64,000 nt of DNA, taken from assembly GCA_030697555.1 (NCBI GenBank), contig JAUYPV010000132.1:1-64000 (forward strand). Direction: 5' to 3'. Both the position numbers and the translations under genes were made by a program. A model generated the notes under the pieces. That model was not told the DNA's origin. It saw nothing but the letters and a program-made list of their open reading frames with translations, and searched no databases. Source of the DNA: Hyphomonadaceae bacterium (GTDB lineage: Bacteria; Pseudomonadota; Alphaproteobacteria; Caulobacterales; Hyphomonadaceae). Numbering within the stretch: position 1 is the first letter of the stretch; each line of letters starts with the position of its first letter. Below are positions 3,053 through 63,511 of the stretch, one piece after another.

Positions 3053-3402
3053 GGGATACGCCGTGCAGCTCGCAGGACGACAATCAGCGAGGGCTCATCG
3101 CGACAGTGAATCCGAACCCCGCCAGGAAACTCCACGGTCAGGTCCAGCGGGTCTGGTCGCTTCTCCAGAGTGGGCGGCGCCATCGGGGTCGAACTGGTCG
3201 CGACCGGCAGGAACTCCACGGGAGCGATCTTGCCGCCAAATCGCGGATCCCGCAGCCAGCCGAACACCACATTGGCGTTGATGCCATGCCGCCTCGCAAC
3301 CGCAGCGATCGACACGCCCGGCTCGTGGGTCTCGGCCACCACCTCGCGCTTGAACGCATCGGAGTAGCTGCGGCGCACCCTCACGGGCCTATGGTCGGAC
3401 AT
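3049..3402 (-). CDS. tnpA: IS66 family transposase TnpA
   Basis: TnpA is the small helix-turn-helix component of IS66 elements and probably contacts the element ends. [14 protein letters not shown] and [20 protein letters not shown] form the helix-turn-helix. I start it at the ATG at 3402 ([13 protein letters not shown]). The frame is open back to 3468, but family members begin close to the RRSYSD motif and the extra residues look like translated noncoding DNA. The product is 117 residues. Confidence 0.9.
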
Positions 3403-3506
3403 GGTCGGATCGCGTCCACGATAGACAAGCGGACACGATCCGCCCCGATCCATCCAGAATGACGCCAATCTCCGCCGCCGTAAGGTCGGTCAGACCGGAC
3501 GGTTAC

Positions 3507-3514
3507 CGCTGACT
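3507..3514. repeat. Right 8-bp target site duplication of the IS66 element
   Basis: CGCTGACT directly follows the right terminal repeat and is identical to 472-479. Confidence 0.9.
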
Positions 3515-3555
3515 GGCACTGGAATGGTGACCTCCATCCGCCCACGTTACGATTT

Positions 3556-17804: not shown

Positions 17805-17828
17805 TGGGGAGATAGTCGCCAAGCATTG

Positions 17829-18173
17829 ATGTTCGGCAGGAGCAAATCGCAATCGACCATCCCTCTCGATCGCATAAGAGCGATCGCCGAACAGAGCCCG
17901 CCCAACGCCTACAGCGACTATGGATCGCTAAAAAAGCGCGAACCCCGCATGACAGTTTATAAGCCGGCCTATGTGATGCTTTCTTACGGCGAGAAGGTTC
18001 CTGTGGTCGTCAAGAACATGAACTCCACCGGACTTCGCATCGAGTTCTTCCAAAATACGACGTTGGGCGAGCGCGTGCAAATCGTTGAGCCCAGCATTCC
18101 GCTTCGCGCTTGGGCGGAGGTCGTGTGGGAGCGCAACGGCGCCAGCGGTCTACGCCTCATCGACACGGGCTGA
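17829..18173 (+). CDS. Single-domain PilZ protein
   Basis: The product (114 residues) is essentially one PilZ domain. REPR (about residue 38) can serve as the arginine-rich motif, and NMNSTGLRIEF (about 65-75) occupies the second binding motif. There the canonical serine of (D/N)xSxxG is asparagine, while the broken copy at 6196 keeps serine. PilZ domains bind cyclic di-GMP and signal it to pili, flagella or polysaccharide systems. I use the ATG at 17829; a TTG one codon upstream is possible. Affinity for c-di-GMP is uncertain given the substitution. Confidence 0.8.
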   Translation: MFGRSKSQSTIPLDRIRAIAEQSPPNAYSDYGSLKKREPRMTVYKPAYVMLSYGEKVPVVVKNMNSTGLRIEFFQNTTLGERVQIVEPSIPLRAWAEVVWERNGASGLRLIDTG

Positions 18174-18245: not shown

Positions 18246-18387
18246 GGTGCTGTCAAGTTATGCAAGTAGAGCCGGTTTTCGAACGGCCGCTGCGTGTTGG
18301 ATGGGTCGAAATTTGACGGAAAATCAATCTAGGCTGCGACTGTGAAAAATCCGCTTGACGAGTATTCACGCTTAACTTGACAGCTCC
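18246..18387. repeat. 142-bp inverted-repeat element, copy A (MITE-like)
   Basis: The ends are 15-bp inverted repeats (GGTGCTGTCAAGTTA at 18246-18260, against the complement of 18373-18387 with one mismatch). The element is 139/142 identical to copy B at 28640-28781, same orientation and length. It has no coding capacity. No 8-bp target duplication flanks it. The right end abuts a hydrolase gene that lacks its 5' part. The likely nature is a miniature element mobilised by an unidentified transposase. Confidence 0.85.
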
Positions 18388-19726
18388 GTCCCAGCTGCTC
18401 GACTGGATCACAGCTCAACCCTGGTCAAACGGCCGTGTCGGCGTCTATGGCCAGTCCTTCGTTGCGCTGACCGCTTATGCGGCGATCGCATCACGTCATC
18501 CGGCTGTCGAGGCGGCTTTCGTGTCAGCAACGCCGCTCGACCCCTACGCGTCGGTCGGCTATCCGGGCGGCCTCTACGCCAGAGGCTTTGGCGAGAACTA
18601 CATTGCCCTGACCGACGATCTTGATGCAGTTGCGACACCGGTGGATGACGATCAGGATGGCGCTCAACTCCACGCGGCGATCGCGGAACGCAAGACCCTC
18701 ACTTTCTCTGGTCTCGTCGCAGATCTTTTCCAGACCACGCCGGCGCGAGATGGGCGCAGCGAACGCGAAGCGCAATCGTGGAGCGATATTTCACTTGAGC
18801 CGGTCATGGACGCTGTCGCCGCAAGCGAAACACCCGTCTACGCCATCGGCGGCTGGCTGGACATATTCAGCGACGACACAGTCCGGCTCAACAGTCTCTC
18901 GAAAGGCCAGAACAAGCTGGTCATGCGCCCCTGGCATCATCGCCTCCTGTTCGCGCGTGAGCACGATCTGGATCCCGCCACCGAAGCGCGCGCCTGGTTC
19001 GATCGCTGGCTGAAAGATGCGGCCCCAAGGCCGGAGAGCGAGCCTGGCGCGTTCTACTTTCAGCAAGCCGGCGATGTCGGCACGCGCCAGGAAGGCACAT
19101 GGTGCAAGGCGACAGGTTGGCCCGAGACAGCAACGCCGGAAACCTCGATCCGCTTTGCGCCGTCGCTCGGCGGAAAGCTGCAAAAGATCGGCGCTCCTTC
19201 GTTCGGCCCGGCGGAAACAATCACGGTTCCGGCCGATCCGGAGGCCACCAGCGGCGTCAACAGCCGCTGGAATGGCGTCCTAGGCAACGGACGCTATGAG
19301 GATCTGGCGGTTCTGAACCCGCAGGCCATCCGCTTCACGTCCGAACCGTTCGCCGAGAAGGCGTCCATTTCTGGCGCACCGGTTCTTCACGTCACGGTGG
19401 ACAGCTCGGCCGCCTCCGCGGTCCACGCCTTCCTCGAATATGTCGGTCCCGACACGAAGGCGGCCTACCTCAGCGAGGGCGTATCCCGCCTCGTCGCGGG
19501 TGCTCCGGCCGTGGTCGACATTCGCCTTCTGCCCACGGCGGTCGAGGTGGCGCGCGGTGGCCGTCTTCGCCTCACCGTCCTGGCCAGTGATCGCGACAAT
19601 TTTGCTCCCGAGACGCCCACGGGCCCTTCTCCCCTCACCCTCCATCTTGGCGGCGGAGATCCCCCCACGCTCCTGCTTCCCTCGCAGCCATGCCTGCCTG
19701 TGCATTTCGGAGCGATTTCGAGATGA
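18377..19726 (+). pseudogene. CocE/NonD-type (peptidase S15) hydrolase, N-terminally truncated
   Basis: The frame begins inside the right end of element copy A and reads directly into WITAQPWSNGRVGVYGQSFV, which holds the serine nucleophile (GQS). The acid is in GGWLDIFSDD and the histidine in RPWHHRLLF. The C-terminal jelly-roll domain of X-Pro dipeptidyl-peptidase-like esterases follows (about residues 210-445). About 100 N-terminal residues normally present in CocE-family enzymes, including the first strands of the alpha/beta fold, are missing. A TTG at 18377 could start translation, but a functional enzyme is doubtful. The next gene overlaps its stop by ATGA. Confidence 0.75.
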
Positions 19727-20106
19727 TCGTGAAACGCCTTGCCGCGCGAGCGATATCCGGATTGTCGAAACTGGCGCGCACCATTGGCTTCCATAGCGAC
19801 CCCCTTCCGCTCCAACCGGCGTTCGAGACATTCCGTATTCTCGATGGCGTCTATGTCGGCGGCCTCACGATGCTGAAGAACACGGGCTGGGAGATGCATC
19901 CGGATGGCGACGAGGCGCTGACCCTTCTTTTCGGCCGGATCGATGTTGTCCTTCAGAATCCCGACGGAGACAGCATCATCCCGCTCGAGCCCGGGCGGAG
20001 CTGCGTTGTTCCCAAGGGCGTCTGGCATCGTCAGATCGTCCACGAGCGGAGCCGGCTGCTGTTCCACACATACGGCGATGCGACGCGGCACAAGCCCCAG
20101 GATTAG
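19723..20106 (+). CDS. Cupin-domain protein
   Basis: The 127-residue product contains a cupin barrel: GWEMHPDGDEALTLLFGRID (metal-binding motif 1, with a histidine and a glutamate) and PGRSCVVPKGVWHRQIV (motif 2, with a histidine). An N-terminal basic amphipathic stretch of about 25 residues precedes it. The ATG overlaps the stop of the truncated hydrolase (ATGA), so the two formed an operon. Small cupins of this sort often bind a metal and act as enzymes or ligand sensors. The substrate is not apparent. Confidence 0.7.
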   Translation: MIVKRLAARAISGLSKLARTIGFHSDPLPLQPAFETFRILDGVYVGGLTMLKNTGWEMHPDGDEALTLLFGRIDVVLQNPDGDSIIPLEPGRSCVVPKGVWHRQIVHERSRLLFHTYGDATRHKPQD

Positions 20107-20426
20107 ACGTTGCCGGACGCGCCTCTTCCGAATACGTCCGAATGGTCCTGACTCGGAAAGCCGGTCTGATCTGCCCGTGATCGCACTGCACTAGCAAGCG
20201 CTCGTGACGCGCGAAAAAGCTGCAGCTCTCCTCCTGGGCGCCGCGTTACATCGGCTCTCAAAGTTCTCATGCTGCGGCGCGCCGACGCGCTTTCTTTCAT
20301 GCCGGGACGCATCTACTCTTCCGAAACTGGCGGCATCGCCGCCCCGCCTCCTCCGTCGACCGGTCCACCCAGCCTGATCTGAGCTGACCCAGCCAGCGCG
20401 GCCGCCGGCACGGCGGGTGTGCTCCA
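20107..20426. other. Intergenic, no supportable gene
   Basis: I see no domain-bearing frame and no clear terminator between the cupin gene and the convergent small helical gene. Confidence 0.45.
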
Positions 20427-20696
20427 TCAGTCCAGATCAAGCCTTTCAGTTTTCATGTCATTCCTTTCGAGGCGCGCCGCCTCCCCTGCGCCTCTGAAGC
20501 TAGCGCCTTTGGGACAGGAGCATCCGTCGTCTTTGTCCTTGGTAGGGCGGGACTGGGATGCCTCGATCAGACGATCGACTTGTTCCAGGCGGCGACGAAG
20601 ATCGGCGTCATCACGTCCTTGGACGCCGGCCAGTTCGATCTCGGCCAACAATTTGCTACGCAGATTTTGGAGCCAATCATCCGTCCCAGCCGCCAC
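20427..20696 (-). CDS. Small helical protein, paralogue 1
   Basis: The 89-residue product shares WLQNLRSKLLAEIELAG and RRLEQVDRLIEAS with paralogues 2 and 3 at 20888 and 24449; the middle is shorter and the C-terminal tail is unrelated (it includes CSCP). The pattern predicts two amphipathic helices. I start at the GTG at 20696, which has AAGGGG upstream; a GTG at 20729 would add 11 residues. No known family is recognised. All three copies lie among degenerate-EAL and receiver genes, so a helical partner or adaptor role is plausible but unproven. Confidence 0.5.
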   Translation of the reverse strand: MAAGTDDWLQNLRSKLLAEIELAGVQGRDDADLRRRLEQVDRLIEASQSRPTKDKDDGCSCPKGASFRGAGEAARLERNDMKTERLDLD

Positions 20697-20887
20697 GTGG
20701 TTGCCCCTTTTAATTGCAGCAACCCCCACTTAATGGCAGCAAGGTAACGCCTGCCGCGAGGTTCCGGTTAATCTACATTAAATCGGTCCGGTTTGTGCAG
20801 AGCCAACGAAGTCGCAGGCCCGTCCCCCCAACCCAGGGCCTGAGGCGCGTAGAGTGGGAGCGCCGGGCAACCGGCGCTCTTTCTGCA

Positions 20888-21100
20888 TCAGCCCGGACTA
20901 TTCTGTTCAAACGCGGCGATCAGGCGCTCGATCTGGGCGAGGCGTACGCGAACTTCCGCGAGGGTTCCTTCGGTGACATTCCTCCGGCCCTGATAGGTCA
21001 TGTGGAAGACCTCCTTCACGCCGCTTTCCATCAGCCCGATTTCGGTGAGCAATTGCAATCGGAGATCGCGCGCCCAGCTCAGCGTATCCGCGTCAGCCAT
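20888..21100 (-). CDS. Small helical protein, paralogue 2
   Basis: The 70-residue product has WARDLRLQLLTEIGLMESGV, then VFHMTYQGRRNVTEG, then VRVRLAQIERLIAAF. This is nearly the same layout as paralogue 3 at 24449 and is shared in part with paralogue 1. I start at the ATG at 21100, behind GGGTGAG; an ATG at 21109 is also in frame. Two helices joined by a conserved polar loop (QGxxNVTxG) are predicted. The gene lies downstream of and parallel to degenerate-EAL paralogue C. Function unknown. Confidence 0.6.
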   Translation of the reverse strand: MADADTLSWARDLRLQLLTEIGLMESGVKEVFHMTYQGRRNVTEGTLAEVRVRLAQIERLIAAFEQNSPG

Positions 21101-21210
21101 CCAGCTCACCCCAGTTCCTGGGGTTAGCCTCTAACGTGCACTAGCTGGCGTGGTGAGACCCGACTCCTCTCGCGCGACTCAACTCTTCGTTTTCCCCCAC
21201 CGAGTGCGTG

Positions 21211-22419
21211 CTAGGCGCCGCCAGCCTCGACCAGGAACCGCGAGGCCGACCATTTGAACACACCGCTCGGGCTCTTGGCTGCAGGCCACACCAGGGAAGA
21301 GGCGAGAAAGTCAATTCCGCACTGCGCGCACTGGTGAGCCTGGCGAGGCGTGAGACTACCCTCGACGAAGAATCGTTTGGAATGAGACCGGGCTGCAGCG
21401 GCATCCTGTCGGACCTTGGCGAAGAAATTCGGGTCTTCGGCAAGGCGCGAGCCCGGCGGCAATGTGTAACCGAGCCCCCACGCCTCGCAGTCAAGCGCGG
21501 TCGAGAAATCGTCCTCCGCCGCATTCATCGACAAGACGACGTGGGGAATGTGAGCCGATAGGAAGGCGACGGTGTCCTTCAGGTACAGCCGGGGAAAACC
21601 AGGGACGACACCGCTCAGCTTGATCGCGCGGTATTTGCAGAGTTCCGGGTCGAATTGCGAGATGATGTGGAGGATGCGGGAGCGGTTTTCCATCTTGACC
21701 AGGCTGGAAACGTGGATTGAGACGCCGAGGATAGCTTTCTTGCCTGCCTCGAACATCGACCGCATCGCGACCTCGGAAGCGCGCAGCGTCACTTCGTCGA
21801 TCTCCAGCAGGCGCGCGGTGACAAAGATGCTGTCCTCGAACTGATAGCCTGCAATCCGCTCGCCCGATTTGAGATTGATCGCCTCGGCATAATAGGTCGT
21901 GACGGCCTCGTGCTTGACGTCCCAGACCGGCTGAAAACGAAGGCCGAAGTCTACTGCGTCGGCTGCCGGTCCAGGCTGAATCTCTCCGCGGCGCGCCTTG
22001 GAGGGATCGGTACCGCTGAGGCCGTTCATGAATTCGGAAAAGCCCTGCACCGGCACCGTCTCGTGGACGGTGTCGACCTTGAAGTGCTTTGTCGCTTCAT
22101 CGCCGAGGAAGAACTGGTTGAGGGATTGTCCGATGGAGTGCGCTGTAAAGGAGGCTTCCGCGGAGTCGACGGCGCCAAATACGATGACAAAGCCGTTGTC
22201 GCAGGGGATGAGAATGTCTTCGTTGTGGATGCGCTTAGTGATAAAGGAGTGTGCGACGTCCTGAATGCGATCGTGTTCGACGCGCCAGCGATCGCCGTAG
22301 GCGACCCGAACCTGGTCAAGTCCGACGAACTGCATCTGCGCAACGTCAATCGTCTTGCCGTTGCGTGCGATGCTGCGTAAGCGATCGACGAGATCGCGAC
22401 CGTCAGTGCCTCCGATCAT
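21211..22419 (-). CDS. Degenerate GGDEF-EAL tandem protein, paralogue C
   Basis: The product (402 residues) is closest to paralogue B (16046). The N-terminal part has VAQMQFVGLDQVRVAYGDRW and DILIPCDNGFVIVFG in place of a GGDEF core. The C-terminal part has RFQPVWDVKHEAVTTYYAEA, VSIHVSSLVKMENRS, and FFVEGSLTPRQAHQCAQCGI where EAL proteins have EGVE. The EAL triad, the NxS asparagine, the DD pair and the lysine are not conserved, so a receptor or scaffold role is more likely than catalysis. The start codon lies about 70 bp downstream of the shared upstream element. Confidence 0.65.
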   Translation of the reverse strand: MIGGTDGRDLVDRLRSIARNGKTIDVAQMQFVGLDQVRVAYGDRWRVEHDRIQDVAHSFITKRIHNEDILIPCDNGFVIVFGAVDSAEASFTAHSIGQSLNQFFLGDEATKHFKVDTVHETVPVQGFSEFMNGLSGTDPSKARRGEIQPGPAADAVDFGLRFQPVWDVKHEAVTTYYAEAINLKSGERIAGYQFEDSIFVTARLLEIDEVTLRASEVAMRSMFEAGKKAILGVSIHVSSLVKMENRSRILHIISQFDPELCKYRAIKLSGVVPGFPRLYLKDTVAFLSAHIPHVVLSMNAAEDDFSTALDCEAWGLGYTLPPGSRLAEDPNFFAKVRQDAAAARSHSKRFFVEGSLTPRQAHQCAQCGIDFLASSLVWPAAKSPSGVFKWSASRFLVEAGGA

Positions 22420-22489
22420 GTGAGCCTCCGGGCCACAAACTTTTCAAACGGGACGGGGCTCAGCATGCTCTCTGTGTATGCTCGATACC

Positions 22490-22516
22490 TTAATTTTGGT
22501 CGGCGGATTGTTTACG
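22490..22516 (-). promoter_or_regulatory. Shared upstream element, copy before paralogue C
   Basis: On the minus strand it reads CGTAAACAATCCGCCG then ACCAAAATTAA. It aligns without gaps to the copies at 24241-24266 and 24352-24380. It ends about 70 bp before the start codon at 22419, much as the others do for their genes. It could be a promoter or the site of a shared regulator. Confidence 0.5.
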
Positions 22517-22660
22517 TTCGGCGCGATCGGTCGAGGAGTCGCTACGTCAATGCCGCCAACGAAAATGGTGAGGCCGCGCGGAGGCTTCCCTGGCGCAGAG
22601 CCGACGAGAGGCGGACCAACCTTCGTCGGCCCGCGTTGCGCTGCGCTTGCAGCTCTAAGG

Positions 22661-23059
22661 CTAGTGTTTGGGCAGTTCACCCCTGCGCCAGTAGTCCACA
22701 ATCGCACCGGCCATGGAGCGATAGTCCTCAAGCGTAGAAGGCTTCTCGACATAGCCGTTGCACCCTTCGGCATAGGCGCGATCGACGTCCTTCTGACGTG
22801 TCGAGCCTGAGCACATCACGATCGGCACAAAGTTACCTTCGCCGCGAAGCATCGCCAGCAAACCGAAGCCATCGAGATCGGGCATCTTGATATCTAACAT
22901 TACGAGGTCCGGCATCTCTTTCCGAATGCGGCCGAGCGCTGTCACCGGCTTAATTTCACCGGTCACGTCCACACCGCTGTGCGATTGGAACGCGAGTGTC
23001 AGGAATTCGAGACAATGCAGATTGTCGTCGACAATGAACACGTTAGCGAGCTTCGTCAT
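22661..23059 (-). CDS. Stand-alone receiver (CheY-like) protein
   Basis: The 132-residue product is a single receiver domain: VFIVDDNLHCLEFL carries the acidic pair, LVMLDIKMPDLDGFG the phosphoacceptor aspartate, CSGS the switch residue and VEKPS the lysine. I start at the ATG at 23059, behind a G-rich ribosome binding site; seven upstream residues are possible. It has no output domain and so acts through a protein partner. It lies between degenerate-EAL paralogue C and another receiver gene on the same strand. Confidence 0.88.
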   Translation of the reverse strand: MTKLANVFIVDDNLHCLEFLTLAFQSHSGVDVTGEIKPVTALGRIRKEMPDLVMLDIKMPDLDGFGLLAMLRGEGNFVPIVMCSGSTRQKDVDRAYAEGCNGYVEKPSTLEDYRSMAGAIVDYWRRGELPKH

Positions 23060-23269
23060 AATGCCCCCCCAACAAGGCACCGCGTCTGGAAGAAAGTCTT
23101 GCGCGATCGTGCGTCCTGCGGAACCCGGGAAACCTGGGGCTCAAGCGATTGGATGACTGAGGTTCAATCGCGGATCAGTTCGCTAATCGACGGTGCGCGC
23201 ATTGGTGTCGGAAGTAAAGCGCTGCAGGTTTGCCGCTCAAAGAAGCAACTGCTTCCATCAGCCGAGCGG

Positions 23270-24163
23270 TCAAGCGACGTCAGTTTTTTTCTCGTGGGCT
23301 GAGTGGATTTTCTTGGCGACCAGGCGTTCGAGCTCGTTGGCGACCGCCGTGCGGTGGAGGAAGGCCTCTGCCGGCATGTCGAGAATGATTGCGATGGTCT
23401 GAAAGTGATACTTCACCACGTCGACATCGTAGGTGTCGGTCATGCCGACGCCCTCGATATAGCGCAGCGCCGTGTTCCACACACGCATGATAACATCATC
23501 GCCCAACGTGGCGACTTCCTCAGCATGCTGGTTGAGCATGCGATACATGCCGCGGATGCCGGTGCTGCGGTCAGTAGTTGTTCGATCGGCATACTGCGAA
23601 AGGTTGTCGACTATGGCGCGCAGTTTGAACGCGTTCTCCTTCGACTGCTCCGGGGCCGCTTTGGCCTGCGGCTCGTCGGTCAGACGCCGCCACGGGCCAG
23701 CATAAGCCGGGTCTTCCTTCCGGCGGCGGCAGGGGCCGACATAGTTGCGGCTGTCGATGAATTTGCGCGGGCGAAGTAGAACCTCCTCAACGCGCGACAG
23801 CACGTGCTGGGCCGAAACCGGCTTCAGCAGGAATTCGTTGATGCCGGCCTGGCGAGCGGCCATCAGCTGATCGTGGTCGATTATCCCGGCAAGCAGGACG
23901 ATTGGGATTTCGCGAGATATGCCCGTAGTGTTGCGGCGGACTTCGCGGGTGAATTCGAGGCCGGACATATTGCCGGCGTCCCAGTCAACGAAGATGACGT
24001 CTGGTTTGAACGTACGGCCGATGGTGAGAGCTTCCAAGGCGTTGGCTGCTGCCGAGATGTTGGTGACGGTGAGGCGGCGCAAACTATCGGCCACTAGGCC
24101 GCGCATGAACGCGTTGGGGTCCACCACCAGCGCCTTCAGGCGCTTCAGCTCGTCAGCGAGCAC
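23270..24163 (-). CDS. Receiver domain fused to an uncharacterised helical C-terminal region
   Basis: The product (297 residues) begins with a receiver domain (about residues 1-125: LKALVVDPNAFMRGL, VIFVDWDAGNMSGLEF, LLAG, LLKPVS). The remaining 170 residues are mostly helical, with NLSQYADRTTTDRST and a C-terminal LERLVAKKIHSAHEKK. They match no output domain that I recognise. I place the start at the GTG at 24163, five bases after GGGAGG; the frame is open to 24310. The shared upstream element lies about 77 bp upstream. It may be the phosphorelay output of this island. Confidence 0.75.
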   Translation of the reverse strand: MLADELKRLKALVVDPNAFMRGLVADSLRRLTVTNISAAANALEALTIGRTFKPDVIFVDWDAGNMSGLEFTREVRRNTTGISREIPIVLLAGIIDHDQLMAARQAGINEFLLKPVSAQHVLSRVEEVLLRPRKFIDSRNYVGPCRRRKEDPAYAGPWRRLTDEPQAKAAPEQSKENAFKLRAIVDNLSQYADRTTTDRSTGIRGMYRMLNQHAEEVATLGDDVIMRVWNTALRYIEGVGMTDTYDVDVVKYHFQTIAIILDMPAEAFLHRTAVANELERLVAKKIHSAHEKKTDVA

Positions 24164-24240
24164 ATGAACCTCCCAACCCGACGACGAGGCCGTTTCAACC
24201 AAGACAGGATTCCTGTACTCCTTGTGTGCTTTCGGGCCCT

Positions 24241-24266
24241 TAATTTCGGGCGACGGATTGTTGACG
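24241..24266 (-). promoter_or_regulatory. Shared upstream element, copy before the receiver-helical gene
   Basis: On the minus strand it reads CGTCAACAATCCGTCG then CCCGAAATTA. It has four mismatches in 26 against the copy at 22490-22516. It ends about 77 bp before the GTG at 24163. Confidence 0.5.
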
Positions 24267-24351
24267 TCTTGGGCGCTGGTTGGTGATCCGTTGCGTTGTT
24301 GCGGAAGCAAACTAGCCGTTGCGGCGTAGCCGCAAACTGAACCGCTTCGTG

Positions 24352-24380
24352 CGTTAACAATTTAACGGCTGAAATTAACG
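24352..24380 (+). promoter_or_regulatory. Shared upstream element, copy before small helical paralogue 3
   Basis: On the plus strand it reads CGTTAACAATTTAACG then GCTGAAATTAACG, matching the 24241 copy at 21 of 29 positions. It ends 68 bp before the ATG at 24449. It also contains GTTAA-N4-TTAAC, which faintly recalls CtrA boxes but has the wrong spacing. Confidence 0.5.
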
Positions 24381-24448
24381 AGGTGAAAACACTGCGAGCG
24401 CACCCTAAGTCCTGTCCCGCTTCTGGCTGCTCTGGTGGAGAGGCTCAA

Positions 24449-24712
24449 ATGTTGGGAGATACTGACAGTCGCGATGTCCTCCATCGAGTGACGGCCACTG
24501 GCACGCTTGATTGGGCGCGCGATCTTCGATTGGAGCTGCTGGCCGAAATCGAGCTTATGCATAGTGGTGTGAAGACGGTTTTCCACAAAACGCTTCAGGG
24601 CCCCGCAAACGTCACTCAGGGATGCCTTCAGGACACTCGGGATCGCTTCGCTCAGATGGAGCGCTTGATTGCAATCCTGGAGGGAAGCGTGACGGGTGGA
24701 AGCAATACTTGA
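24449..24712 (+). CDS. Small helical protein, paralogue 3
   Basis: The 87-residue product contains LDWARDLRLELLAEIELMHS, VFHKTLQGPANVTQG and RDRFAQMERLIAILEG, the same layout as paralogue 2. An N-terminal extension of about 20 residues (MLGDTDSRDVLHRVTATG) differs. The ATG at 24449 has GGAGAGG eight bases upstream. An IS66 remnant begins directly after its stop codon, so its original 3' flank is lost. The conserved loop QGxxNVTxG is a good family signature. Function unknown. Confidence 0.6.
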   Translation: MLGDTDSRDVLHRVTATGTLDWARDLRLELLAEIELMHSGVKTVFHKTLQGPANVTQGCLQDTRDRFAQMERLIAILEGSVTGGSNT

Positions 24713-24715
24713 TTT

Positions 24716-25367
24716 TTGAGACAGCGCCGGCGTCGCCGCGCTTTGACGCCCTGGCAACGCCCGGTCTGCTCGCTCACGTCCTGGTCGCCAAATACTGCGA
24801 TCACCTGCCCCTCTACCGGCAGTCGAAGATCTTCTCTCGGCACGGCGTCGAGCTGGAACGTTCAACGCTCGCTGGCTGGGTCGGCGGCGCCGCCTGGTGG
24901 TTGGAATCGCTGCGCCGTCGCCTTGCCGAGGATGTGGTCGCCTCCGACATCCTGTTCGCTGACGACACGCCAGTCCCCGCGCTCGATCCAGGACGCGGGC
25001 GGACGAGACCGGACGCCTGTGGGCCTATGTGCGGGACCAGCGCAGCTGGACCGGCGCCGATCCGCCCGCTGCCATCTATCACTATGCGCCGGATCGCAGG
25101 GCCGGGCGGCCGGAGGCGCACCTCGCCCGGTTCAAGGGCATCGTCCATGTCGATGGTTATGCCGGGTTCGAACGGCTGACGGCCAATGGCGACATCATGC
25201 TCGCGGCATGTTGGGCGCACACCCGCCGCAAGTTCCACGAGGTGGCGGAGGCTGAGAACACGCCGCTGGTGCATGAAGCGCTGCGCCGGATCGCTTCCCT
25301 CTACGCCATCGAAGCGGAGGTGCGCGGCCAGACGCCTGCGCGTCGGTTTGCGCACATTGAAGCCTAG
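24716..25367 (+). pseudogene. Internal fragment of an IS66 tnpC, frameshifted
   Basis: The sequence matches the central part of TnpC in the complete element at 480-3506: [33 protein letters not shown] and DILFADDTPVPALDPGRGRT, then a frame change near 25020 into [12 protein letters not shown] and ACWAHTRRKF. It lacks the N-terminal coiled coil and zinc finger and everything after RGQTPARR. Its orientation is opposite to the complete element and the sequence differs clearly, so it derives from another IS66 copy. Confidence 0.85.
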
Positions 25368-25672
25368 CGCGACCGCGGCTCCCGATGCACCGTTATCGCC
25401 GATAACCTTTTCGCCGATCGGTTTTCCTGCGCTGGATCGCGCTGCCGAGCCGGGGAAAGCCCTGTGGCTGCTGCCTAACCGGCCACATTTCCTTCTTTGC
25501 CTACGCGTATCCGTATGGCTTTGACCCAGCCGAATATCGTCGAGAATCAAGAGTTGAGTCGTTAATCGGCTGAATTTCAACGAACGCATCCATGCGAGCT
25601 TAGCATCGGGGTGAGAGCCTGAAGGCACGAACGGGAATGGGCCAAGGCGCGACTGCGCCACGGAGGTTCAGT

Positions 25673-26872
25673 ATGCAAGGCTTACACAGTGCGATGCTCG
25701 CGGATCATCCAGCCGAACGCCTGAGGCGGATCGTTCGAAATAGGACCGAGCTGGATGTCGCACAGTTCCGCTTCGTCGGTCTCACCAACGTGGAAAAGAC
25801 ATTGGGACTGCCGACCAAGTCCTGGACTTGGGATGCGGTGAAGTCCTTCCTTCAGACGCGGCTGCAGCGTGACGATATGCTGGTGCGCGGCGAGGGAGGG
25901 CTCCTTGTGGTCTTCGCCACGCGTATTGGCGAGGCTGCCGAGCAGGCGGCGTACGATCTCGCCTTCGAGCTGAACACGCAGTTCGCCGCCAACGCAGAAG
26001 GCGACAAGCCGCAGGTTCTGGTCGCAGCCTGCTCTGTGCCGGTCAGCGAGCTCGCCAACGCGATTCGAACAGGGCGCATCGATAACCTGTCATCAAGCTT
26101 CGGCGATCCCGTGAGTCTGCTTCCCTCGGAGTTGGAGTGGCGGTTCCAGCCCGTGTGGGATGCGCGCCGGGAGGTGATTTCAAGCTATTTCGTGGTTCCG
26201 ACAGCCAAGGGTACGAACCAGCGGGTCCGCGGATATCAGTTCGAGCGCATGCCGGCCGACGACAGACCAGACTATGCGGCGATCGACGAAGCAAGCCTGA
26301 AGGTATCCGAGCGAGCGCTGCGCAAGCTACGCGGCGAACGCAAACGCGCCCTTGTTGGCTTGAGCCTGCACATCAACACGCTGCGCCGCGAGGACACCGC
26401 AGGGCGGATCATGTCGCTGCTGGCGGGGCTCGACAAGGATCTGGCGCGTTACCGGCTGATCAAGATTGCCGGCGTCGAGGCAGGCTTTCCCAAGCTGCAG
26501 CTCGCGCACATCGTCGGCGCCTTGCGCGCCCGGGTTCCGCTGGTCCTGCTCAGCGCGGCTTGGGACGAACCGGATATCGACTCGCTGGTCAAATCTGGCC
26601 CCTCGGCCATCGGCTTCGCCTACCCAGATACGGCGGCGACGGCGCTCGCGAGCCTTGCCGAGAGCAAGCTGATGTCGAACCTCCGGGCCGGCGCCGACGC
26701 TGCCCACGCGCACGGCATGCCGCTCTACGTAGAGGGAGTGATCAGTCCATTCCTCGCCAGCGCCTTCCGCGAGGCGGGCGCGGACTACATGTCCTCGCCA
26801 CTGATCTGGACGCCTCAGGAGGCGCCCGACACTGTGATGAAATGGCCCGTCAGCCGGCTTGCGGCGGCCTGA
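25673..26872 (+). CDS. Degenerate GGDEF-EAL tandem protein, paralogue D
   Basis: The product (399 residues) is the intact counterpart of the amber-interrupted gene at 10650. The N-terminal region has RTELDVAQFRFVGLTNVEKT and RDDMLVRGEGGLLVVFATRI, which looks like a GGDEF fold whose active-site loop has decayed to GEGGLLVVF. The EAL-like region has EWRFQPVWDARREVISSYFV, LSLHINTLRREDTAG, AAWDEPDIDSL and LYVEGVISPFLASAFREAG. Catalytic glutamate, asparagine and aspartates are not at the expected places. The ATG at 25673 follows GGAGG by five bases. It probably works by binding a protein or nucleotide. Confidence 0.7.
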   Translation: MQGLHSAMLADHPAERLRRIVRNRTELDVAQFRFVGLTNVEKTLGLPTKSWTWDAVKSFLQTRLQRDDMLVRGEGGLLVVFATRIGEAAEQAAYDLAFELNTQFAANAEGDKPQVLVAACSVPVSELANAIRTGRIDNLSSSFGDPVSLLPSELEWRFQPVWDARREVISSYFVVPTAKGTNQRVRGYQFERMPADDRPDYAAIDEASLKVSERALRKLRGERKRALVGLSLHINTLRREDTAGRIMSLLAGLDKDLARYRLIKIAGVEAGFPKLQLAHIVGALRARVPLVLLSAAWDEPDIDSLVKSGPSAIGFAYPDTAATALASLAESKLMSNLRAGADAAHAHGMPLYVEGVISPFLASAFREAGADYMSSPLIWTPQEAPDTVMKWPVSRLAAA

Positions 26873-26931
26873 TGAGCGCAGCTTCGCACCGGGTCGTAGG
26901 TGCGTGAGTCTAACGTGTGCCGCCTAGTTGA

Positions 26932-27129
26932 CTGATCTACGGCATCGACAAGGCGATCACTCGCGCCAAGCTGATCCCCGGCGTCGAAACGCAGATCCTG
27001 CCAGGCGCCAACCACACCGCCGCGCTTTCAAAGTCCGCCGCCGTGAGTGCTTGTATCCTTGCCTTCATCGAGCTCCAGCTGACCGGCGAAAAGTCCCGCC
27101 GTGATCGCCAATGCGCCCTCCAGCACTAA
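26932..27129 (+). pseudogene. C-terminal remnant of an alpha/beta hydrolase
   Basis: The frame reads IYGIDKAITRAKLIPGVETQ, then ILPGANHTAALSK, then ILAFIELQLTG, resembling the last helix-strand segment of an alpha/beta hydrolase with its catalytic histidine (GANH). No start codon or upstream part is present. It is a 65-codon fossil downstream of paralogue D. Confidence 0.5.
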
Positions 27130-27305
27130 CGGTCCCACGCTGCAGAACAGGCAAACGAAAGTAAATCAGCGTGCGAGATTCGACTTCGGCGGCACCGACA
27201 GCGGCGGGGTCGAGACTCTGTCTCGCGGCGAACGCTTCGGCCATGACCTTAAGCTGGCGATCCGCGTTCTGTGGCGCAGGCATACTGGAACGAGCAGGAG
27301 AGCCG

Positions 27306-28562
27306 TCAGTCTTTCGGCGATCGGCGCGGGGCGCCGACCATCAGGATCGAGCCACGCTCTGCCGATGGGCAATGTCCAGGATCAGATCCTTCCCGTTCAT
27401 CGGAAGAGCGTTTCGTCGCGGCCTCACCACCAAGAAACGTCAGAACAAACTCCGATCCACAGCCGGGTTGGCTTGTCGCGGTCGTTGTCCCTCCCATCAG
27501 CTCGGCGAGTTTGCGGGTTATTGAGAGCCCGAGGCCGGTCCCGCCGTAGGTGCGGGCGGTGGTGTCGTCCGCCTGCGTGAAGGGCCGAAACAGCCGCTGA
27601 AGCGTTTCTTCGTTGATACCTGCGCCGGTGTCCGCGACCCGGATCTTCACAAGATGATCGCCGGAGCTCTGGCGGACCGAAGAAGCGTACACAACGACAT
27701 GGCCGCGAGCTGTGAACTTGATCGCATTGGAAATCAGGTTGCCCAGGCATTGTCGCACGCGTCCGGCATCGAAGTTCAGAACCGGCGGCAAAGCGGCGTC
27801 CACACAGACATGAAATTGAAGGCCGGCCTCTTGCGCCTTGGGGGCCCAAAGTTGGCCAACTCGCTCCAGCAGATCGATAATGTCAGTCTCGATTGGCGTG
27901 ACGGTCAGCTTGCCCGCTTCAATCTTCGAAATGTCGAGAATGTCGGTCAGCAAAGCCAGCAGGTGGCGCCCCGAATCCAGGATTGTCGATACCTGTTCAC
28001 TCTGCTCGGGCGCTAGTGGTCCCATCGCCAGCACCTGCGCCATGCCCAGGATTCCGTTGAGCGGTGTCCGAATTTCGTGGCTCATGTTGGCGAGGAACGC
28101 CGATTTCGCAGTCGAGGCGGCGAGCGCGAGATTCTCAGACTCAACAGCTGCTTCGTGCGCTCGCCGCAGTTCCTTCTCCTTGGCGCGCAATTCCGTGATG
28201 TCCACTGATGTCGCGGCCTTCCGGCCGTGCGGCATCGACCGAAAGCTCACGCGGACGATGCACCCATCCTCGGTCGGCGTTTCGTAGGGCTCGCCGGTCT
28301 GGAACTTGCTGGTGAGGCCAGCAGTGACTTGCTCGATCTGTTCCCTCGACGCTCCCGGCCAGGCGGCGGCGACGGAGACGGCAATTGCGCCCTTGAAGTC
28401 CAAACCGCAATCTAGCGCGGCATAGAAGGTCGGAAATCGCCTTCGGGAGACACTGTTCGCCACGATCGGCTTGCCGTCGGCCTCACAGATCATAAAGCCA
28501 TCGGGCAGGGCCTCGAGGGCGTCCTGCATGATCGGGCTGACCTCAATCGCAGCGGGCTCCAT
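27306..28562 (-). CDS. PAS sensor histidine kinase (HisKA/HATPase), possibly a truncated hybrid
   Basis: The product (418 residues) is cytosolic. A PAS-like domain (about residues 10-125: ALEALPDGFMICEADGKPIV) is followed by a coiled linker and HisKA with FLANMSHEIRTPLNGILGMA (about 155-175). The ATPase domain has NLISNAIKFTARG, RVADTGAGI and GGTGLGLSITRKLAELMGG. After the ATPase domain the chain ends soon after SILMVGAPRR, which looks like the first strand of a receiver domain (ILxVDD) cut short. It may therefore be the remnant of a hybrid kinase. The ATG at 28562 is preferred over a TTG at 28574. A stand-alone receiver of the island could be its partner. Confidence 0.85.
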   Translation of the reverse strand: MEPAAIEVSPIMQDALEALPDGFMICEADGKPIVANSVSRRRFPTFYAALDCGLDFKGAIAVSVAAAWPGASREQIEQVTAGLTSKFQTGEPYETPTEDGCIVRVSFRSMPHGRKAATSVDITELRAKEKELRRAHEAAVESENLALAASTAKSAFLANMSHEIRTPLNGILGMAQVLAMGPLAPEQSEQVSTILDSGRHLLALLTDILDISKIEAGKLTVTPIETDIIDLLERVGQLWAPKAQEAGLQFHVCVDAALPPVLNFDAGRVRQCLGNLISNAIKFTARGHVVVYASSVRQSSGDHLVKIRVADTGAGINEETLQRLFRPFTQADDTTARTYGGTGLGLSITRKLAELMGGTTTATSQPGCGSEFVLTFLGGEAATKRSSDEREGSDPGHCPSAERGSILMVGAPRRSPKD

Positions 28563-28639
28563 GTGGAAATCCAAGAGTCATATCTGCTAATCGTCAGACC
28601 GTAGATTCAAACGCATGCGAGCTAAGGATTCGTTTCGTC

Positions 28640-28781
28640 GGTGCTGTCAAGTTATGCAAGTAGAGCCGGTTTTCGAACGGCCGCGGCGTGTTGGATGGGT
28701 CGAAATTTGACGGAAAATCAATCTAGGCTGCGACTGTGAAAAATCCGCTTGACGAGTATTCGCGCTTAACTTGACAGCACC
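28640..28781. repeat. 142-bp inverted-repeat element, copy B (MITE-like)
   Basis: It has perfect 15-bp terminal inverted repeats (GGTGCTGTCAAGTTA at 28640-28654, complement at 28767-28781). It differs from copy A at three positions. No flanking target duplication is visible. Its right end cuts into an SRPBCC-family gene that has lost its first codons. Confidence 0.87.
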
Positions 28782-29119
28782 TCTATGCCGCGCTGACTGA
28801 GGCCAAGGCATTCACCGCCTTCACGGGCGGTGCGCCGGCGGAAATCGACGCGAGCGCCGGCGGCGCCTTCTCTCTTTTTGGCGGTCGCGTCACCGGGTTC
28901 AACATCGACCTCGAGCCCAGTCGTCGCGTCGTCCAGGTGTGGCGTGCGGGCAATTGGGACGCTGGCCAGTTCTCGCTTGTCCGTTTCGATCTCACCGCGA
29001 AGGGCAACGGTACGAAAGTCGTATTCGACCAGGCGGGCCATCCGCCCGGCGCTGCCGAACATCTCGCGGCTGGCTGGGCACAGATGTACTGGGAGCCGCT
29101 CGCCGCGTATCTCAAGTAA
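28778..29119 (+). pseudogene. SRPBCC (AHSA1-like) protein, N-terminally truncated
   Basis: Directly after the element copy B the frame reads LYAALTEAKAFTAFTGGAPA, then GGRVTGFNIDLEPSRRVVQV, then GNGTKVVFDQAGHPPGAAEH and WAQMYWEPLAAYLK. This is the AHSA1 branch of the START-like fold, missing about the first 15-20 residues (helix and first strand). No plausible start codon precedes the homologous part. Family members are hydrophobic-ligand-binding proteins or Hsp90 activators. Confidence 0.75.
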
Positions 29120-50170: not shown

Positions 50171-51105
50171 CCTTTCTCCACGAGCAGTCTGACTTCGGCG
50201 ACCTGCTCGCGGTTGTCGGCGACACCCTGAAAATCGATCCAGGGCTCGTGGAGAAAGACTACTGGCTCATGCACACCCTCTGGGGACTGCAGCAGCTGGG
50301 CTACACCTTCGAACTGAAAGGCGGCACGTCCCTGTCGAAAGGCTTCGGCCTCATCCACCGGTTCTCCGAGGACATCGATATCCACATCGATCCTCCAGCG
50401 GGGCTGCTGGTAGGATCCAATCACAACAAGCCGCAGCATATCGCGGCTCGCCTCGCCTTCTATGATGACCTGGCCGCCAACATAAAAATCGCCGGCATAG
50501 CAAAGGTCGAGCGCGACAAAGCCTTTGATGACCCGAAGGGACGCAGTGGCGGCATCCGCCTCATCTATCAGGGATCCAAAGCGGCGCCGGGCGGCGTCAA
50601 GGAAGGTGTCCTGCTGGAGGCGGGCTTTGACCAAGTCGCGCCGAACCGCGCGTGCAACATTTCGTCCTGGGCCTATGACCACGCCATCGCAAGCGGCGTG
50701 AAGAAGCTCACCGACAACCGCGCCCTCAACGTCGCCTGCTACGAACCAGGCTACACGCTGGTCGAGAAACTCCAGACGGTCTCGACAAAATACCGGCAAC
50801 AGCAGGACGCCGGCGGCATGCCGACAAACTTCATGCGGCACTATTACGACATCTATTGCCTGCTATTCGACCCGACCGTGCAGGCGTTCATCGGAACGGA
50901 CGCCTATCTCAAGCACAAGGACGACCGCTTTCGGGCCCAGGACGAAAAGGGCATCACCAGGAACGAAGCATTCCTCCTGAGCGACCCAACGGTGCGCAAG
51001 ATCTACGCCGCAGAATATGCGTCCACATCGGCTCTCTACTACAACGGACAGCCGCCATTCACTGACCTCCTCGCGCGGATCAAGGATCACGCCGCGAGAC
51101 TGTGA
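50167..51105 (+). CDS. Nucleotidyltransferase AbiEii/AbiGii family toxin (second pair)
   Basis: The product (312 residues) has the AbiEii core FELKGGTSLSKGFGLIHRFS followed by EDIDIHID (about residues 51-78), the nucleotidyltransferase metal-binding motif. Later come GYTLVEKLQTVSTKYRQQ (lysine motif) and FMRHYYDIYCLL. It begins 4 bp inside the antitoxin gene. The last 63 codons also exist as a second copy at 54263-54451, separated by a metal-resistance module, which marks this gene as an integration or recombination site. It is unlike the first AbiEii at 4205. Confidence 0.88.
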   Translation: MTFLHEQSDFGDLLAVVGDTLKIDPGLVEKDYWLMHTLWGLQQLGYTFELKGGTSLSKGFGLIHRFSEDIDIHIDPPAGLLVGSNHNKPQHIAARLAFYDDLAANIKIAGIAKVERDKAFDDPKGRSGGIRLIYQGSKAAPGGVKEGVLLEAGFDQVAPNRACNISSWAYDHAIASGVKKLTDNRALNVACYEPGYTLVEKLQTVSTKYRQQQDAGGMPTNFMRHYYDIYCLLFDPTVQAFIGTDAYLKHKDDRFRAQDEKGITRNEAFLLSDPTVRKIYAAEYASTSALYYNGQPPFTDLLARIKDHAARL

Positions 51106-51112
51106 CGCCTTC
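50917..51112. repeat. 196-bp direct repeat, copy 1 (3' end of the AbiEii toxin gene)
   Basis: It matches 54263-54458 over 196 bp with 12 substitutions and no gaps. Eleven of the substitutions are synonymous in the toxin frame and one is a Thr/Ser change. The first about 65 and last about 45 bp are identical. Confidence 0.9.
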
Positions 51113-54262: not shown

Positions 54263-54458
54263 AAGGACGACCGCTTTCGGGCCCAGGACGAAAAGGGCAT
54301 CACCAGGAACGAAGCATTCCTCCTGAGTGACCCAACAGTGCGCAAGATCTACGCCGCCGAGTATGCGTCCACGTCCGCCCTCTACTACAATGGCCAACCA
54401 CCATTCAGTGACCTCCTCGCGCGGATCAAGGATCACGCCGCGAGACTGTGACGCCTTC
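54263..54458 (+). repeat. 196-bp direct repeat, copy 2 (detached 3' end of an AbiEii toxin gene)
   Basis: The sequence encodes the last 62 residues of the AbiEii toxin in frame to the same stop codon, but with no gene in front; it begins 11 bp after the GDCCVxC stop. Against copy 1 there are 12 substitutions, 11 synonymous. That suggests it derives from a different allele rather than from a fresh duplication. It marks the right border of the metal module. Confidence 0.88.
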
Positions 54459-63373: not shown

Positions 63374-63511
63374 GGTGTTGTCAAGTTGAGCGGGATTTGT
63401 CGAACATCGATTCTGAAGGTGATCGGGAGGCTGATTTGAGGAGGAATTTCGGACGCAGCCGGGCAGCGGAACGTGCGGAATCGCGCCTTATTAGGTCAAC
63501 TTGACGGCATC
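63374..63511. repeat. 138-bp inverted-repeat element (MITE-like, second type)
   Basis: The ends are GGTGTTGTCAAGTTGA (63374-63389) and the complement of TCAACTTGACGGCATC (63496-63511), 13 of 16 matching. The core GTCAAGTT is shared with the 142-bp elements, but the interior differs. There is no coding capacity. It lies between nhaA and folP. Confidence 0.55.

Follow-up and report, generated by a model that had tools for sequence, protein, structure and literature searches.

Short elements with IS6-like ends adjoin 5'-truncated genes in a Hyphomonadaceae genome

Introduction

Two nearly identical short elements, A and B, lie in a 64,000-nucleotide stretch of a Hyphomonadaceae genome (contig JAUYPV010000132.1, positions 1 to 64,000; hereafter the window), and each is joined at its right end to a gene that has lost its beginning. 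What kind of element is this, and how did it come to stand twice at the broken edge of a gene?

Copies A and B and their neighbouring genes

Renewed measurement returned the two near-identical 142-bp inverted-repeat copies at the coordinates given by an earlier reading of the sequence alone (Table 1), with three mismatches between them, at element positions 46, 123 and 140. The 15-bp terminal repeats described in that sequence-only reading were likewise recovered: the inverted ends match at 15/15 positions in B and 14/15 in A, GGTGCTGTCAAGTTA forming both ends of B and, with one mismatch, those of A. Outside the element, A and B agree for 2 bp on the left and for none on the right. The 15-bp end pattern (at most two mismatches) occurs five times in the window against a mean of 0.25 in shuffled sequence and is not due to chance. 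The element is 142 bp long, is present in multiple copies and contains no transposase gene. No promoter-like site that would make a hybrid promoter from the outward TTGACA was found at the A or B junction, and searches of the window for Rfam-type RNA families and tRNAs found none.

Table 1. Elements and adjoining genes in the window
Feature	Position	Strand	Remarks
PilZ-like protein, left neighbour of A	17826..18173	+	complete to stop codon; Pfam score slightly below cut-off
Copy A of the 142-bp element (most likely an IS6-type MITE)	18246..18387	+	
CocE/NonD-type hydrolase remnant	18388..19726	+	right of A; ~92 N-terminal residues gone
Histidine kinase, left neighbour of B	27306..28574	-	listed start 66 bp from element
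Copy B of the 142-bp element	28640..28781	+	98% identical to A
AHSA1/SRPBCC-type protein remnant	28781..29119	+	right of B; without start codon or first strand
Third, degenerate copy	63374-63510	-	identity 69% with the contig C36 copy and 58% with A

At both A and B homology restarts within two codons of the element. In the hydrolase, the TIGR00976 match begins at model position 84 of 550, the PF02129 match begins at 81 of 262, and residue 5 of the remnant lines up with cocaine esterase residue 97; the 5' truncation first noticed from the sequence, then put at about 100 residues, is thus upheld at about 92. Copy A itself contains a TTG, at 18377, in frame with the remnant. The remnant appears to have kept the serine motif and lost the first part of the fold. 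On the right of B, the PF08327 match runs from position 7 of 125, which marks the SRPBCC protein as AHSA1-like, and residue 1 of the remnant pairs with residue 19 in an alignment to an AHSA1 chain of 132 residues. Its first codon takes the last base of copy B, in its frame a TGA stands three codons ahead of the first homologous codon, and no ATG, GTG or TTG occurs between the two or in the next 19 codons, in agreement with the earlier description of this gene as lacking its start. Clipping is confined to the right side of A and B, since the PilZ-like gene to the left of A is complete up to its stop codon and the kinase gene to the left of B starts clear of the element.

Close orthologues of the hydrolase or the SRPBCC gene were absent from the 41 genomes of the order that were searched, in which the best hydrolase relatives are 30% identical. 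A protein search of plasmids gave hydrolase relatives of at most 27% identity among the best 8 of 118 records, and no relatives of the SRPBCC protein. The assembly has 29 hydrolase-family matches, none of them restricted to the lost N-terminal part, so that no detached hydrolase N-terminus was detected by a search that a short or gap-located fragment could escape; this result favours deletion over exchange.

A family of elements in the genus

The assembly that holds the window (G000) is a draft of 4.98 Mb in 176 contigs. A search of it with copy A returned A and B themselves and, on contig C36, the end of a diverged copy; among 150 genomes four matched, its own counted, all of the same genus. 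A profile built from six copies (R1) was searched in 15 genus genomes and 46 other genomes of the order. It found 14 places at E <= 1e-3 in six of the 15 genus genomes (G000, G006, G008, G009, G010 and G013), eight of which are not among its source copies, and nothing convincing in the 46 others (best E 0.056). A second profile of twelve copies (R2) gave 13 hits at E <= 1e-3, all in these six genomes, and reached a best E of 0.018 in 16 genomes outside the genus. The twelve aligned copies are 42-79% identical except for A and B (98%), and most are 141-142 bp long. The 142-bp elements form a small, real, genus-wide family of a known kind and are not an isolated pair.

The further copies for which the sequence-only reading proposed a search did turn up: besides that on C36 there are a third copy within the window and, on the same contig (C52) but outside the window, a partial copy near 65622-65725, which brings the number on this contig to four. 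No gene is obviously clipped at the third copy. Its downstream gene is one that we take to be folP-like, and folP, folB and folK presumably lie between it and the partial copy (C52:65622-65725); these two copies are diverged and share one orientation. A second form, 130-131 bp long with ends GGTGCTGACAAGTTAAG, occurs on contigs C115 and C64 of G000 and in G002. Its copies at G000:C115:1873-2003 and C64:19509-19639 are 131 bp long, lack target duplications and are nearly identical by eye.

A distant-mode search of a plasmid collection gave no match to copy A, and the exact inner right end was not found in viral contigs. One degenerate right-end pattern, searched in genome contigs, gave the single record JALHLU010000013.1 (a Hyphomonadaceae MAG), which is probably the copy already known on G013:C13. 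A search of the literature on MITEs in Hyphomonadaceae or Hyphomonas found nothing relevant.

Kinship with the IS6 family

PF13610 transposases were found in ten of the 15 genomes searched, including nine of the ten genus members. A scan of IS6 ends, which took in 21 of the 30 IS6 loci returned, found exact, inward-facing GGTGCTGTCA at nine of the 21 and AGAGCTGTCA or near variants at others; ends downstream of the transposase read, for example, AGAGCTGTCAGGTTAAGC, and TTAA is present further in at some ends. Four IS6 copies had both ends located and measure 817, 817, 818 and 745 bp. The 142-bp element shares ten identical terminal bases with IS6 elements of the genus, and the likeness is confined to about the first 10-15 bases. 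Passages in PMC6807381 describe bacterial IS6/IS26 ends, inverted repeats of about 14 bp, that begin with GG and have G at position 7; those of clade III also have A at position 10. The ends of the 142-bp element have all three. Because these ends are similar to the ends of IS6-family insertion sequences from that genus, the elements are most likely IS6-type MITEs, a kinship that rests on the ends.

Past the end repeat, 7.3-7.5 of 24 bases are alike, against 6.0 in shuffles, at one class of IS end and there is no likeness at the other, a comparison in which the 5'/3' labels of the IS6 ends were partly wrong and which serves here only to describe the inner likeness as weak. No full-length IS6 element sharing the inner end sequence of the element was found, and the three IS6 transposases of G000 are all partial; the full-length parent with shared ends that had been envisaged from the sequence did not emerge.

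On contig C10 of G000, a solitary right end of the 142-bp element lies at 1524-1556 and the truncated start of an IS6-like transposase, recognized by eye, at 3326-3530, 1.8 kb away, with a GMC-type oxidoreductase gene between them. Detached 14-bp IS6-type ends abut the left end of a copy, in the same orientation, in two of 15 copies (GGTGCTGTCAGGGT, G010:C110, just past 5268; GGAGCTGTCAGGTC, G006:C255, just past 6319), and may be what is left of an insertion or joining event at the end of a different element.

Missing duplications and the origin of the junctions

An 8-bp target duplication, the hallmark of simple IS6 insertion, was found at none of the 15 element copies, the best agreement being 5 of 8 bases (the ends of G010c and of the copy at 63374 are degenerate). 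At A 2 of 8 flanking bases match and at B 3 of 8, so that the earlier failure to see duplications at these two copies was borne out. The four IS6 copies with both ends located lack an 8-bp duplication as well. According to passages in PMC7986276, IS26 copies need not carry this duplication, and its absence therefore does not exclude the IS6 family. In the same passages, intramolecular replicative transposition of IS6 elements leads to deletion or inversion of the segment between the element and its target, and the flanking repeats are lost.

Clipped genes adjoin the element in relatives too. The copy at G006:C25:3212-3353 abuts an IS6 transposase without about 96 model positions and the copy at G010:C110:9774-9914 one without about 55, both transposases passing the Pfam cut-off and, as partial proteins, falling short of the NCBIfam one. 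In both cases the clipped gene lies at the left end of the element, while the clipped genes of A and B adjoin the right end, so both element ends take part. The proposal that losses occur at the same element end is thus correct for A and B and does not extend to a rule. The Pfam search of flanks covered five of the 15 copies; the flanks of the C36 copy matched no family.

The family, its ends, the exact joining of gene and element, the missing duplications and the like ends of IS6 copies in the genus are observed, and we propose, with a probability of about 0.6, that A and B are IS6-type MITEs moved in trans and that adjacent deletions clipped both right-hand genes. An IS6-type transposase acting in trans would move the gene-less 142-bp elements by replicative transposition. 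If the target attacked lay on the element's own molecule, the stretch between them would leave as a circle, and the element would then be joined straight to the far side of the target without a bracketing duplication. The start of the right-hand gene would have been lost in one such event at A and in another at B. We infer that an IS6 transposase is the mover and that the junctions arose by deletion and by no other route. Adjacent deletion by the mobilizing transposase, one of the two possibilities raised from the sequence at the outset, is plausible because the pattern fits the intramolecular transposition described in the IS6 passages of PMC7986276, with duplications missing from 15/15 copies and no detached N-terminus detected, and it is the best of the explanations considered.

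Exchange between copies is the alternative that the sequence-only reading had itself raised for A and B. Ordinary MITE insertions followed by homologous recombination, whether of A and B or of copies since lost, could have swapped flanks and so removed both duplications and gene halves, and the material for it is at hand in A and B, which are direct repeats of 98% identity, and in the several copies per genome, four on the contig of the window. However, no crosswise 8-bp flank match exists among the copies of G000, A and B included, and the sole one-mismatch flank match in 5670 comparisons joins two different genomes. The detached hydrolase N-terminus that exchange might have left was not detected in the assembly, and duplications are absent even from copies that are at most 79% identical to any aligned copy and thus too diverged for frequent recombination. 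We consider this route unlikely. It is highly improbable that the hydrolase and SRPBCC genes were horizontally acquired already broken, with the element merely at the edge of the acquired DNA: the scarcity of relatives in the order, with no close orthologue of either gene in 41 genomes and best hydrolase relatives at 30%, would suit such an origin, but in both genes homology starts no more than two codons from the element, and break and element end would have had to coincide twice.

Other explanations concern the nature of the element itself. Were it a MITE of another DDE family, with ends beginning GGTGCTGTCA by happenstance, the weak likeness inside the end repeats and the lack of an intact IS6 partner in the assembly would be expected; the ten terminal bases identical with those of genus IS6 elements, the TTAA further in at some ends and the lack of duplications common to the elements and the IS6 copies nevertheless make this quite doubtful. 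The constant length, the inverted ends and the clustering of copies a few kb apart would also suit a recombination site, for instance an integron attC, in place of a transposable element, but this is hardly credible here, given that the single-strand fold is not conserved (z -3.38 to +0.24 over four copies), that copies are spaced 2-35 kb apart and that the core-site-like motifs in the element, as we understand them, point the wrong way.

The deletion account can be carried further, to a reading that we regard as speculative and rather improbable. The MITE family would spread almost only by intramolecular, duplication-free IS6 reactions, each copy would be the scar of a deletion or targeted joining, the end repeats would themselves serve as targets, as the two of 15 copies abutting a detached 14-bp IS6-type end might indicate, and A and B together would form a mobile 10.4-kb unit that an IS6 transposase could excise and join to other copies.

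The interval between A and B

A role for A and B in duplicating the island's signalling genes is not supported. The paralogue pairs 11069/26089 and 10598/25621 are 78% and 74% identical, each at a spacing of 15.0 kb, and the pair 6343/17976 is 73% identical at 11.6 kb, compared with 98% identity and 10.4 kb for A and B; with lower identity and different spacing, the paralogues did not arise from the event that copied A and B. The G+C content of the interval (0.59-0.63) is not distinct from that of the window (0.58-0.67). When the stretch from 14 to 33 kb was compared with 31 genomes, nine candidates being scored per genome, those matches in relatives that were listed each spanned less than about 0.92 kb. 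A pseudo-compound transposon composed of A, the intervening 10 kb and B was considered and rejected: the outer flanks AGTTGATC and TCTATGCC differ and share no 8-bp repeat.

Two other repeats were seen on this contig. A 76-bp sequence at 20811-20886 recurs in inverted orientation, 99% identical, at C52:65761-65837, outside the window; it contains a strong GC-rich hairpin (fold z -3.4), and the search of the window against Rfam matched nothing. The other repeat is direct, measures 196 bp at 94% identity and lies outside the A-B interval, at 50917-51112 and 54263-54458, 3.3 kb apart.

Relation to known systems

IS6 transposases are best known for building resistance islands. If the proposed account is true, they also reshape environmental alphaproteobacterial genomes through gene-less 142-bp passengers, and the absence of duplications from 15/15 copies would make these small elements a readable record of deletions. 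The family itself belongs to a class already known and is understandable within it. Passages in PMC6807381 and PMC7986276 name only two IS6-family MITEs in ISfinder as of 2019, MITEBth2 and MITEHarch3, which by these descriptions resemble the present elements in having two IS6-type ends and no gene and are set apart by their lengths of 227 and 336 bp, compared with about 142 bp here and 130-131 bp in the related form. Unlike these two, the 142-bp family occurs in several species, all from a single genus of Alphaproteobacteria.

With IS26 and other short bacterial IS6 elements, the 142-bp element has in common ends that start with GG and carry G at position 7, an outward -35-like motif and, as far as the passages in PMC7986276 describe them, adjacent deletions and an absence of target repeats after intramolecular transposition. 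It differs in lacking a transposase gene and in being 142 bp long rather than about 800; the IS26 consensus end is GGTTCTGTTGCAAA, whereas that of the 142-bp element is GGTGCTGTCAAGTTA, which at position 10 carries the A of clade III. Closest to hand are the full-length IS6 elements of the genus (817, 817 and 818 bp; for example on G008:C8, G006:C199 and G003:C531), which have terminal GGTGCTGTCA or AGAGCTGTCA as the element family does and, like it, no 8-bp repeats at the copies checked, but which carry a PF13610 transposase and have mostly different inner ends.
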